DNA of 22,114 nucleotides, from the IMG/VR virus record IMGVR_UViG_3300044911_001153, positions 1 through 22,114 of that record, one strand, 5' to 3'. The notes below the pieces were generated by a model, which worked only from the letters and a program-made list of their open reading frames with translations, made no database searches and had not been told where the DNA came from. The position numbers were made by a program, and so were the translations under genes. Of the stretch, positions 18,012-22,081 are shown one piece after another. Position 1 is the first letter of the stretch, and the number at the start of each line of letters is the position of its first letter. The stretch comes from a virus.

Positions 18012-18383
18012 TCAACTTGCGTTATTCCTTCTCGGGCGATAAGCAAACAAGTTCGTCGGAGGATCTGGTTTCATCCATTCTTCAATCTTATCAAATCTTT
18101 CTTCGCTATAAAAGTCTTGCTGAACATACCACAACTTCCAGTGCTCGTGTCCCTTTGACTGGTTACAATCGTGGCAGCAACAGACTACATTTTTTGTAAC
18201 GTCTAATCCACCTTTTGATTGAGGAAGAATATGATCAATTGTGAGTCTGTCTTCTGATCCACAATAAGCACATTGATGACCCCATTCTTCTTTTATCTTT
18301 TGCCTCCACATTCGTTTCGCTTCTCCTGGACTTGTTGTTTGTAGATGAAACAAGTACTCTGAAGGCGAACGGAGGAGATCCAT
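18012..18383 (-). CDS. HNH endonuclease, free-standing, 123 aa
   Basis: Contains CAYCGSEDRLTIDHILPQSK with the zinc pair CxxC and the catalytic DH, then GGLDVTKNVVCCCHDCNQSK with the second CxxC and the asparagine/histidine positions of the HNH (beta-beta-alpha metal) motif. A basic N-terminal helix (EAKRMWRQKIKEEW) precedes it. Family members nick or cut DNA and, in T4-like phages, are usually homing endonucleases or carry out packaging-related cuts; a homing role is inferred from its free-standing place between the photosynthesis block and the structural operons. No Shine-Dalgarno is visible before the ATG; an ATAAATA motif lies 19 nt upstream. Confidence 0.88.
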   Translation of the reverse strand: MDLLRSPSEYLFHLQTTSPGEAKRMWRQKIKEEWGHQCAYCGSEDRLTIDHILPQSKGGLDVTKNVVCCCHDCNQSKGHEHWKLWYVQQDFYSEERFDKIEEWMKPDPPTNLFAYRPRRNNAS

Positions 18384-19067: not shown

Positions 19068-20125
19068 AGTGCGTTGCCCCTTGGAAGAACTTCCTCTGGG
19101 AACACAAAGTTCTCATGAGGTTGGTCTACTGGAGCCATCCAAGCACGAAGACCTTCATTCAGAAGAATGTTCTTAGTATAGAAGGTTTCAAACTCAGGAT
19201 CCTCTGCTGCACGAATCTCCTGACTTACGAAATCATAAGCCCTCAAATTCAATGCTAAACCGATGATGCCGATAGAAGAAGTCCAGAGACCCATAACTGG
19301 AACAAAAAGCATAAAGAAATGAAGCCAACGCTTGTTACTAAAAGCAATACCGAAGATCTGAGACCAGAATCTGTTAGCCGTAACCATAGAATACGTCTCT
19401 TCCTCTTGAGTCGGTTCAAATGCTTTGAAAGTGTTTGCCTGATCACTATCTTCAAATAGAGTGTTTTCTACAGTAGCTCCGTGAATCGCACAGAGTAGTG
19501 CTCCTCCCAATATACCAGCAACTCCCATCATATGGAAGGGATTGAGGGTCCAGTTGTGGAAACCCTGAAGGAACAGCAGAAACCTGAAGATAGCAGCAAC
19601 ACCAAATGAAGGTGCGAAAAACCAACTGGATTGTCCCAGTGGATACATCAGGAATACAGAAACGAATACTGCGATGGGACCAGAGAATGCGATTGCGTTA
19701 TAAGGACGAATGCCCACCAGGCGAGCAATCTCAAACTGGCGCAACATAAATCCGATCAGACTAAAGGCCCCGTGGAGTGCCACAAAAGTCCAGAGTCCCC
19801 CAAGTTGGAACCACCTGACGATATCCCCTTGAGCCTCAGGACCCCAGAGCAGAAGAAGAGAATGACCCATAGAATCTGCTGGAGTACTAACTGCCGCAGT
19901 AAGAAAGTTTGCACCCTCAAGATAGGAACTTGCCAACCCGTGAGTATACCAACTCGTAACGAAAGTTGTCCCAGTAAGCCAACCACCAAGAGCAAGGTAA
20001 GCAGTGGGAAAAAGAAGAAGTCCAGACCAGCCAACAAAAACGAAACGATCTCTCTTAAGCCAATCATCCAGGACATCGAACCACCCCCTTTGTGAAATAG
20101 GTCGTGAAAGTGTAGAAGAAGTCAT
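19064..20125 (-). CDS. psbD: Photosystem II D2 protein, 353 aa
   Basis: Full-length D2 (family length about 352-353). Seen: the N-terminus [20 protein letters not shown], five hydrophobic spans, the redox-tyrosine region [16 protein letters not shown], the chlorophyll- and iron-ligand histidines in [17 protein letters not shown] and [10 protein letters not shown], the conserved [20 protein letters not shown] loop at the QA site, and the C-terminus [13 protein letters not shown]2 pairs with D1 in the photosystem II reaction centre in the thylakoid membrane and carries QA. Phage copies are thought to keep photosynthesis running during infection. It has a very strong ribosome site (AAGGAGG, 3 nt before the ATG) and an ATAAATA motif 22 nt upstream. 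The 44-aa gene overlaps its stop. Confidence 0.98.
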
Positions 20126-20147
20126 AGCCTCCTTTTGTTATTTCTCA

Positions 20148-20154
20148 TATTTAT
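20148..20154 (-). promoter_or_regulatory. T4-type late promoter motif ATAAATA before psbD
   Basis: Minus-strand ATAAATA, 22 nt before the psbD ATG, with AAGGAGG in between. It lies in the short gap after the homing endonuclease gene and would allow psbD to be transcribed separately from psbA. Confidence 0.5.
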
Positions 20155-20177
20155 CTTAACATTTTTTAACAAAGAGG

Positions 20178-20549
20178 TCAATGAGTATTAGTGCTTAAAT
20201 ACTCAATCATTGCTTGGAGAGTGCTTACATTATCTCCAACAAGACCAAGAGCAGTGTTGCAATTATTACAAAGAACACCACGAACCTTATTTGTAGAGTG
20301 GCAGTGGTCTATACATTTCTTTGTTAGTTCTACATTACATATCTGACAGTTCTCATTCTTCATCAAGTCATTATATTGGTCCTCCGTGAGTTTAAACTTG
20401 CGTCTGGCATATTCGTGAGTTTTATAATACTGTCTGCGAACTTCTCTTTCGCAGTCCTTACATTTTGATTGAACACCAGAAGGTCTACTGCTTCTTTTAG
20501 AGAACCCATCAAGTTCTTTTATTTGTCCACATCTGCTACAAGTTTTCAT
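20178..20549 (-). CDS. Free-standing endonuclease VII-like homing endonuclease, 123 aa
   Basis: Seen: an N-terminal zinc-finger-like part (MKTCSRCGQIKELDGFSKRS and SKCKDCERE), then the nuclease core ENCQICNVELTKKCIDHCHS and TNKVRGVLCNNCNTALGLVG. The pattern CxxC - DHCH - x - T - x - x - VRG - x - LC - x - x - CN - x - x - LG is that of recombination endonuclease VII (His-Me finger; T4 gp49 nuclease domain). It lies between psbA and psbD. From memory, S-PM2 encodes a free-standing homing endonuclease, F-CphI, at this place, which cuts intronless psbA near the intron site; I infer the same role here. The leader holds an ATAAATA motif and a TATAAT-like box but no Shine-Dalgarno. Confidence 0.87.
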   Translation of the reverse strand: MKTCSRCGQIKELDGFSKRSSRPSGVQSKCKDCEREVRRQYYKTHEYARRKFKLTEDQYNDLMKNENCQICNVELTKKCIDHCHSTNKVRGVLCNNCNTALGLVGDNVSTLQAMIEYLSTNTH

Positions 20550-20575
20550 TATGGTATGGAAGTTTGGTATGGAAA

Positions 20576-20582
20576 TATTTAT
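20576..20582 (-). promoter_or_regulatory. Late-type motif ATAAATA before the homing endonuclease
   Basis: Minus-strand ATAAATA, 26 nt before the ATG at 20549, just downstream of the psbA terminator; a TATAAT box (20586-20591 region) overlaps this same short interval, so either type of polymerase could start here. Confidence 0.45.
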
Positions 20583-20593
20583 ACATTATAGCA

Positions 20594-20620
20594 TAAAAAA
20601 AGAGACCCGTGAGGGTCTCT
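20594..20620 (-). terminator. Rho-independent terminator of psbA
   Basis: Perfect 8-bp stem AGAGACCC/GGGTCTCT with a 4-nt loop (20601-20620) followed on the minus strand by a T run (20594-20600). It lies eight bases after the psbA stop codon. Confidence 0.92.
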
Positions 20621-20627
20621 AATTTTA

Positions 20628-20699
20628 TTAACCGATTGCGGGAGCAGTAAGAGCAACTGGGGTTGCTTCTGCTGCTGCAAGGTCAAGTGGGAAGTTGTG
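20628..20699 (-). CDS. psbA: psbA exon 2
   Basis: On its own this 24-codon stretch has no start codon. It encodes the conserved D1 C-terminus from His-337 (canonical numbering), including the carboxy-terminal extension after LDLA that is removed during D1 maturation, and ends with TAA at 20628-20630. Easily missed because it is out of frame with exon 1 in the genomic sequence. Confidence 0.95.
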   Translation of the reverse strand, partial: HNFPLDLAAAEATPVALTAPAIG

Positions 20700-21919
20700 C
20701 TTCCAGTTTGGACTATATCTTCACCATACTCTTTATGAGGTTAGGTGTCGGACGCTATTGGTGTATTACATCCCACGCTTGGGAAACCACCTAGTCTCTG
20801 AACCTTCCCTAGAAGCGTCTAGGGCTTGGCTGCTGATTGCCCGTTAGGGTTTCCAGCAATTCATCCGAAGTTTACCTTGTCTTTTCAGGCAAGGGCGCCC
20901 ACAAATCGAGCGTTGCGTTCGTGCATCACCTCTAATCCGAGTCCAGCACGGTTGAGAACATCAGCCCAAGTGTTGATTACCTTGCCCTGACTATCAACGA
21001 TAGACTGGTTGAAATTAAAGCCATTTAAGTTAAAGGCCATCGTAGAAACACCAAGAGCGGTGAACCAGATACCTACAACAGGCCAGGCAGCAAGGAAGAA
21101 GTGCAGCGAACGGGAGTTATTGAACGAAGCATATTGGAAAATAAGGCGTCCGAAATAACCGTGAGCAGCAACGATGTTATAAGTCTCTTCTTCTTGACCA
21201 AACTTGTAACCATAGTTCTGCGACTCAGACTCAGTGGTTTCACGAACCAGTGAGGAAGTCACAAGAGAACCGTGCATTGCACTAAACAGAGAACCACCGA
21301 AGACACCAGCAACTCCAAGCATATGGAATGGGTGCATCAGGATGTTGTGCTCTGCCTGGAACACAAGCATGTAGTTGAACGTACCAGAGATACCCAAAGG
21401 CATCGCATCAGAGAAAGAACCTTGACCGAAAGGATAGACCAGGAACACTGCGCTAGCAGCAGCAACAGGTGCGCTGTAAGCAACACAGATCCAAGGACGC
21501 ATACCCAGGCGGTAGGAAAGTTCCCACTCACGACCCATGTAGGCGTAGATACCGATCAGGAAGTGGAAGACTACCAGTTGGAAAGGTCCACCGTTGTAAA
21601 GCCACTCATCTAGGGAAGCAGCTTCCCAGATGGGGTAAAAGTGTAGTCCAATAGCGTTGGACGAAGGAATCACAGCACCAGAGATGATGTTGTTTCCGTA
21701 CATGAGTGAACCAGCGACAGGTTCACGGATACCATCGATATCCACAGGAGGCGCGGCAATGAAGGCGACAATGAAGCAGATAGTAGCAGCAAGCAGGCAA
21801 GGAATCATCAGGACTCCGAACCAACCGACATAAAGACGATTATCGGTTGAAGTAACCCAGTTGCAGAACTGTTCCCAAGTATTCGATTGTGATTTTTGAC
21901 GTGAAAGAGTAGCAGTCAT
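20628..21919 (-). CDS. psbA: Photosystem II D1 protein, split by an intron (exon 1 20909-21919, exon 2 20628-20699), 360 aa when spliced
   Basis: Exon 1 encodes 337 residues and exon 2 the last 23 ([23 protein letters not shown]), together the normal D1 length. Seen: the redox-tyrosine and manganese region [32 protein letters not shown] with chlorophyll and manganese ligands, [10 protein letters not shown], the QB pocket [20 protein letters not shown], and the C-terminal [15 protein letters not shown]. Without splicing the frame runs into the intron, adds RFVGALA and stops at 20885 (344 aa). The intron falls after HERNA, so an unspliced product would lack the His-337, Asp-342 and Ala-344 type manganese ligands (canonical numbering). 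D1 turns over fast in light; phage copies replace it during infection. A long 5' leader with a hairpin precedes the ATG, and a terminator follows exon 2. Confidence 0.97.
20700..20908 (-). ncRNA. Group I self-splicing intron in psbA, 209 nt
   Basis: Boundaries follow from D1 homology and from base pairing. Exon 1 ends ...CGCU, which pairs with intron GGCG (20896-20899), giving the standard U-G wobble at the 5' splice site (P1). The adjacent intron UUGUG pairs with CACAA at the start of exon 2 (P10). The last intron base is G. The core is typical: P4-P6 region at 20821-20860 (ATTGCTGGAAACCC and GGGCAATCAGCAGCC), a 7-bp P6 hairpin at 20807-20824, and P7 strands at 20791-20804 (CAGAGACTAG) and 20710-20719 (GATATAGTCC). 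No ORF is inside it. From memory the S-PM2 psbA intron is of similar size (about 212 nt). The nearby endonuclease probably mobilises it. Confidence 0.94.
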
Positions 21920-21970
21920 TTGTTTAAAAAAGTAGTAAGACCATCAGGGAAATGGTGGTGATACTATGCT

Positions 21971-21989
21971 CCCGCCACCCTCAGGCGGG
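21971..21989 (-). promoter_or_regulatory. Hairpin in the psbA leader
   Basis: CCCGCC and GGCGGG can pair as a 6-bp all-GC stem with a 7-nt loop, about 50 nt before the psbA ATG. There is no T run, so it is not a standard terminator in this direction. It could stabilise the mRNA or affect translation; no function is shown. Confidence 0.45.
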
Positions 21990-22081
21990 ATATGAGAGAC
22001 GTAATTTATACACCCATAGGTCTCGGTTAGCGGGTGTGGACAATGTTAAAGAATCTTTACACTCGTTAACATTTGTTTACC

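Follow-up and report, generated by a model that had tools for sequence, protein, structure and literature searches.

The closest described system to the locus presented here is the psbA gene of cyanophage S-PM2, for which a group I intron, collaborative homing with the endonuclease F-CphI and light-dependent splicing are already known. The passages of PMC5931967 that concern this intron describe efficient, light-responsive splicing, with the spliced isoform in about 2-fold excess early, a state that persists in high light and declines to near-equimolar amounts by 6 h under low light; they also state that the F-CphI site is interrupted by this intron and that marine metagenomic libraries widely contain psbA introns. 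F-CphI and collaborative homing are described in sections of PMC6083498, collaborative homing in general in portions of PMC10448857, PMC2988022 and PMC3984707, and the introns of S-SRM01 and S-CBWM1 are mentioned in a portion of PMC8557907. The DNA analyzed here (hereafter the window) is the 22,114-base virus record IMGVR_UViG_3300044911_001153, which, like cyanophages, has psbA and psbD, both on the minus strand. Its psbA bears a group I intron and is followed by a free-standing gene for a probable homing endonuclease, and from its sequence the locus looks like a case of collaborative homing where the target would be protected interchangeably by insertion of an intron or by recoding.

The intron is located at 20700-20908 (minus strand, 209 nt), at an insertion site designated A, between canonical D1 codons 336 and 337 (336|337); in the same canonical numbering the S-PM2 intron follows codon 334. 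Exon 1 (20909-21919, minus strand) encodes D1 residues 1-337 in phage numbering, canonical 1-336, and matches Photo_RC (PF00124, E-value = 4.3e-90). Its frame, from 21919 to 20909, reads 7 residues into the intron before a stop, giving a 344-aa open reading frame (ORF) at 20885-21919, and picks up again at 20699 in exon 2 (20628-20699 with the stop codon, minus strand), which supplies the missing 23 residues on the D342/A344 side for a spliced D1 of 360 aa. The last base of exon 1 is U and that of the intron is G. The internal guide GGCG (20896-20899, minus strand) pairs as P1 with CGCU of exon 1 (20909-20912), with U.G at the splice site, and the intron's UUGUG (20900-20904, minus strand) pairs as P10 with CACAA of exon 2 (20695-20699). 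Using cmscan, RF00028 was matched with 80.6 bits (gathering score 50, E-value = 2.4e-19) over 20918-20688, at model positions 1-253 of 253; a chance match to the group I model is excluded. Helices P1, P3, P7 and P10 form. Among 12 distinct site-A introns, both sides change in P2 and P3, with a single non-pair, in P2, as counted by our own script run without a shuffled or slid control; P1, P7 and P10 are unchanged throughout and hence uninformative on compensatory change. At the sequence level, a group I intron after D1 codon 336 is confirmed at 20700-20908, with both predicted splice sites supported.

A preliminary description of the window had proposed this 209-nt intron with base-exact splice sites, and the frames, the spliced 360-aa D1 and RF00028 bear it out; the P1 and P10 pairings it gave are exact, the group I core was found at full length by the covariance-model search, and that only spliced mRNA would yield a complete D1 follows from the reading frames. 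It had also let the intron split the manganese ligands of D1, which holds for H332 and E333 on one side and D342 and A344 on the other, but not for H337, a second-sphere residue in the photosystem II structure. S-PM2, its precedent, does have a group I intron in a cyanophage psbA, but with its own guide and 6 nt upstream of that of the window; identity of the two introns was rejected because the insertion sites differ (336|337 vs 334|335). A further idea, that the unspliced product (ending in RFVGALA) mimics mature D1, was dropped, as the S-PM2 read-through, by eye, does not. As a whole the earlier interpretation is partly supported, and the adjacent endonuclease, absent from it, explains more of the anatomy of the locus.

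The endonuclease gene lies at 20178-20549 (minus strand) and encodes a 123-aa protein of the Endonuclease VII (EndoVII) family, DHHRN-type (PF02945, E-value = 2.6e-17). Residues C84, D101, H102, H104, R110 and N118 of F-CphI align with identical C68, D81, H82, H84, R90 and N98 in the window; C84, D101, H102, R110 and N118 were probed by mutation in F-CphI according to the relevant part of PMC6083498. The ORF is thus probably a homing endonuclease with intact catalytic residues. Its identity to F-CphI is not that of an orthologue, at 36% vs 59-100% for F-CphI-type loci, and the 209-nt intron is itself too short for an endonuclease ORF. Like the window, S-PM2 combines a 212-nt group I intron in this part of psbA with a free-standing EndoVII-motif endonuclease 3' of the gene, as given in a section of PMC6083498; unlike the window, its guide and P10 are different. 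Cyanophage S-SKS1 (HQ633071) has an endonuclease 86% identical to that of the window in the corresponding position 3' of psbA, but its psbA is intronless, with a recoded target (ATT CAC GAA AGG AAC GCC CAT AAT TTT CCA TTG) and the change M331I. The cultured cyanophages S-CBWM1 and S-SRM01 resemble the window in having group I introns towards the 3' end of psbA, the 3'-most at 337|338 and 334|335, respectively, and differ from it by at least one more interruption in each psbA. The S-SRM01 psbA (L004 in our numbering of loci) is annotated as partial D1 genes, apparently exons separated by several interruptions; the last of these is the intron at 334|335, downstream of which lies an F-CphI-type gene (83%). 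A blastn search of the window intron against the phage collection matched 29 records, none across more than 80% of the intron; the cyanophages among them were S-PM2, S-RSM88, S-SRM01 and S-CBWM1, whose psbA 3'-end introns are at other sites. Outside psbA, Bonocora and Shub (2009) reportedly described collaborative homing in T7-like phages. As cited in parts of PMC10448857 and PMC6083498, a free-standing endonuclease there targets the intron insertion site, as would that of the window; unlike in the window the gene is that of a DNA polymerase, and those parts mention no closely spaced site series or recoded target. For the 336|337 site, the site cluster, the micro-exons and the recoded targets described below, no account was found in the literature on psbA introns and collaborative homing, sampled in part.

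The same intron and endonuclease occur in contig IMGVR_UViG_3300044641_006011 (L016/L026), and comparison with it points to movement of both together. From the window end to 20975 the two sequences are identical at 970 of 1140 positions (85%), and from 20953 to 20028, across the intron, exon 2, the endonuclease gene and the psbD start, at 923 of 926. The near-identical tract (20028-20976, minus strand) has 3 mismatches in 20028-20953 and one at 20954, and mismatches are dense from 20977 up. Identity breaks about 45-69 nt 5' of the intron insertion site, the position expected for repair copying outward from a nearby cut. Judging by this one contig pair, the tract is the footprint left when intron and endonuclease gene were transferred jointly, and an intron without its own endonuclease ORF moving together with a free-standing neighbour is one mark of a collaborative homing pair. 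Two further relatives retain the endonuclease in other settings: L028 shares 377/380 nt of it and the psbD side with the window but has a different intron, at codon 331, and L027, found by a protein comparison among the best 80 of 90 loci, encodes an endonuclease 99% identical in protein (347/362 nt) beside an intronless, recoded psbA.

The survey comprised 335 distinct loci (384 minus identical 3' regions); no usable psbA 3' end came from 63 of 220 sources in one survey and 103 of 487 in another. Endonucleases were classed by identity, at least 59% for the F-CphI type and at least 60% for the window type. Control loci without an endonuclease came from pattern scans, among the matches listed (at least 120 per scan), with patterns upstream of the target. 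The strict controls include newly fetched loci only (112), and the wider set of 164, used for the divergence and codon profiles, includes 52 older loci; strict figures are preferred wherever they exist. The strict set lacks older loci that the pattern scans listed as well, which biases it against the reading of alternative protection given below. The F-CphI type (43 distinct loci) adjoins an intron in 40/43, 38 of those at the site of S-PM2; two loci lack the intron, both with altered target residues, and one further locus is frameshifted. In contrast, the window type (27 distinct loci) stands mostly beside an intronless recoded psbA (17/27), with introns at mixed sites in the other 10/27. A 3'-end psbA intron was found in 6/118 strict endonuclease-less controls. 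The intronless locus L256 was excluded from the intron counts.

The intronless carriers of the window type have an unusual codon choice just where the introns of others are inserted. Arg334 is AGA/AGG in 16/17 of these loci vs 38/112 strict controls (Fisher 2.3e-6), and AGA/AGG was used at 0/152 of the upstream Arg codons of the same 17 genes. From codons 60-325 to the target block, again within the same genes, Phe TTT rises from 17% to 72%, His CAT from 13% to 53%, Ala GCA from 28% to 82%, Leu TTA/TTG from 10% to 50% and Asn AAT from 28% to 56%. Identity to the nearest endonuclease-less allele is lower by 0.150 in codons 327-341 than in codons 149-318 (n = 14), vs 0.009 for controls (n = 109, p = 4e-7). 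A psbA tree with 94 rows, 24 of them window-type and 70 taken at random from the 164 controls, needs at least 5 changes of the endonuclease label by well-supported branches, so that carriers of the endonuclease are not one clade; parsimony gives 11 changes, with bootstrap unsettled. From the codon-choice and divergence profiles of these endonuclease-bearing intronless relatives, the putative target would extend over codons 327-336 (5' half, 20909-20938, minus strand) and 337-341 (3' half, 20685-20699, minus strand), on either side of the intron of the window. The target is therefore likely to be protected in either of two ways, by an intron or by recoding of the site.

Concerning the insertion sites, psbA 3' ends of phage records and viral contigs showed four main points, inside codon 331, 334|335, 336|337 and 337|338; the first intron of L024 is at codon 330 (by eye). 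Splice sites were computed by translation match, and the rule of U and G as the last exon and intron bases broke ties at sites A and B, where it is consequently not independent evidence. Tandem intron pairs at the psbA 3' end occur in six loci. Both members exceed the RF00028 gathering score in L019, L020, L023, L057 and L061; in L024 this holds for the second, the first scoring 39.2 bits (gathering 50, E-value = 5.9e-7). The micro-exons between them, read partly by eye, measure 16 nt for L019 and L023, 19 nt for L057 and L061 and, judged by eye, about 18 nt for L024; L020 is tandem by Rfam, but the 3' splice site of its second intron is not clean. A tree built from 69 distinct introns groups its rows by site, with two label changes each for A, B and D and one for C (bootstrap unsettled). 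This clustering, along with the label changes, makes several separate intron invasions of the same short psbA stretch likely. In L057, seven Rfam group I matches were located along the phage psbA (405-3826), including the tandem pair around the 19-nt exon. A further recurrent insertion point, at about phage codon 299, was seen in L010, L012, L013, L021, L022 and L063.

Taken together, we hold it highly probable that the cyanophage psbA intron sits inside the target of the neighbouring endonuclease, that the two spread by collaborative homing, and that intron and recoding are alternative means of self-protection. The endonuclease would cut the unprotected intronless psbA of co-infecting phages at approximately codons 327-341, and repair from the window genome would copy intron and endonuclease together, as for S-PM2 and F-CphI. 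The intron would shield the carrier's own psbA and would be spliced out of the RNA, so D1 could still be made. Most carriers in the endonuclease lineage of the window are intronless with a synonymously recoded target, and there the recoding itself may block cleavage. With somewhat less assurance, we think it rather probable that the 45-bp stretch for the oxygen-evolving-cluster ligands is a battleground of psbA-targeting endonucleases, shielded repeatedly by recoding or by one or two of several group I introns at four to five points within about 23 nt, down to 16-19-nt micro-exons.

Several observations weigh against this account. Among 16 distinct loci with a single site-A intron, 2 have a window-type endonuclease, 1 an F-CphI-type, 5 another EndoVII-type and 8 none. 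One of the 17 intronless window-type loci (L049) retains CGA at 334, and among the eight window-type loci with a single intron one, L028, uses AGA there; the same AGA/AGG codons are found in the 38 strict controls mentioned above. In the five window-type loci with a site-B intron, CGT at 334 would be expected anyway from P1 pairing. Carriers of other EndoVII-type genes have a weaker dip in identity (-0.082, p = 6e-4 vs the 164 set). Codons 293-304, close to the recurrent insertion point at codon 299, also dip (p = 6.6e-5), beyond the target, which means either a tract wider than one target or a second target.

The excess divergence, reaching as far as about codon 293, bears on another explanation of the recoding, that an odd-codon donor allele spread by co-conversion with the endonuclease and that cutting is not blocked by its codons themselves. 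Co-conversion of flanks is a necessary part of homing, and a tract of this kind is present at the window locus; nevertheless, the stretch that separates target from endonuclease gene (codons 341-358) is no more divergent than in controls (a variable region with low power), carriers differ in the codons they use (AGA/AGG, GCA/GCC), and a phage able to cut itself would still need some protected target. We consider such hitch-hiking improbable, if not negligibly so. It is unlikely, too, that regulation is the main reason for the intron's retention, with splicing efficiency, set for instance by light, determining D1 and mobility being secondary. That unspliced mRNA cannot encode a complete D1 would suit such a role, as would the PhotoRC-II RNA in the psbA 5' leader (21956-22048, minus strand; RF01717, 81 bits, E-value = 6.1e-13), and control of D1 by splicing efficiency, also put forward in the preliminary description, has already been proposed in print for S-PM2 (PMC5931967). 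However, the intron is patchy in its presence (the 6/118 given above for strict endonuclease-less loci), near relatives with the same endonuclease type are intronless, and intron presence follows endonuclease type. The gene 3' of psbA could in principle be a Holliday-junction resolvase (T4 gp49-like) with an incidental location, given the shared Pfam family (PF02945) and, in a section of PMC6083498, one motif family holding both a resolvase and an endonuclease clade; this is very improbable, as its close relatives adjoin psbA in different phage backgrounds and follow its 3' sequence state, and F-CphI, at the same place, cuts the intronless psbA of S-BM4 according to the same section. A splicing-dead intron in a dead psbA is scarcely credible in view of the full-model Rfam match, P1 and P10, the full-length spliced D1 frame and the covariation in relatives.

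Other features were also observed in the window and its relatives. A terminator-like hairpin (AGAGACCC/GGGTCTCT, followed by a T run) was noted by eye between psbA and the endonuclease gene (20593-20620, minus strand), and a second nuclease ORF, of the HNH type (PF14279, E-value = 5.1e-13), is located downstream of psbD at 18012-18383 (minus strand). The PhotoRC-II RNA is likewise present in L019, L023, L028 and L061. In L065 and L187, EndoVII-family genes lie directly 3' of an intronless psbA on the opposite strand.

By itself, the intron of the window is one more example of a known thing. What the locus adds is a set of near-matched natural alleles in which almost the same endonuclease is accompanied by three states of psbA, an intron at 336, an intron at 331 or a recoded intronless target, and with these three states the collaborative-homing idea becomes directly testable; since the cultured S-SKS1 has the recoded state, a cutting assay is practical. 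The findings suggest that selfish endonucleases may influence which codons are used in a photosynthesis gene present in many cyanophages.
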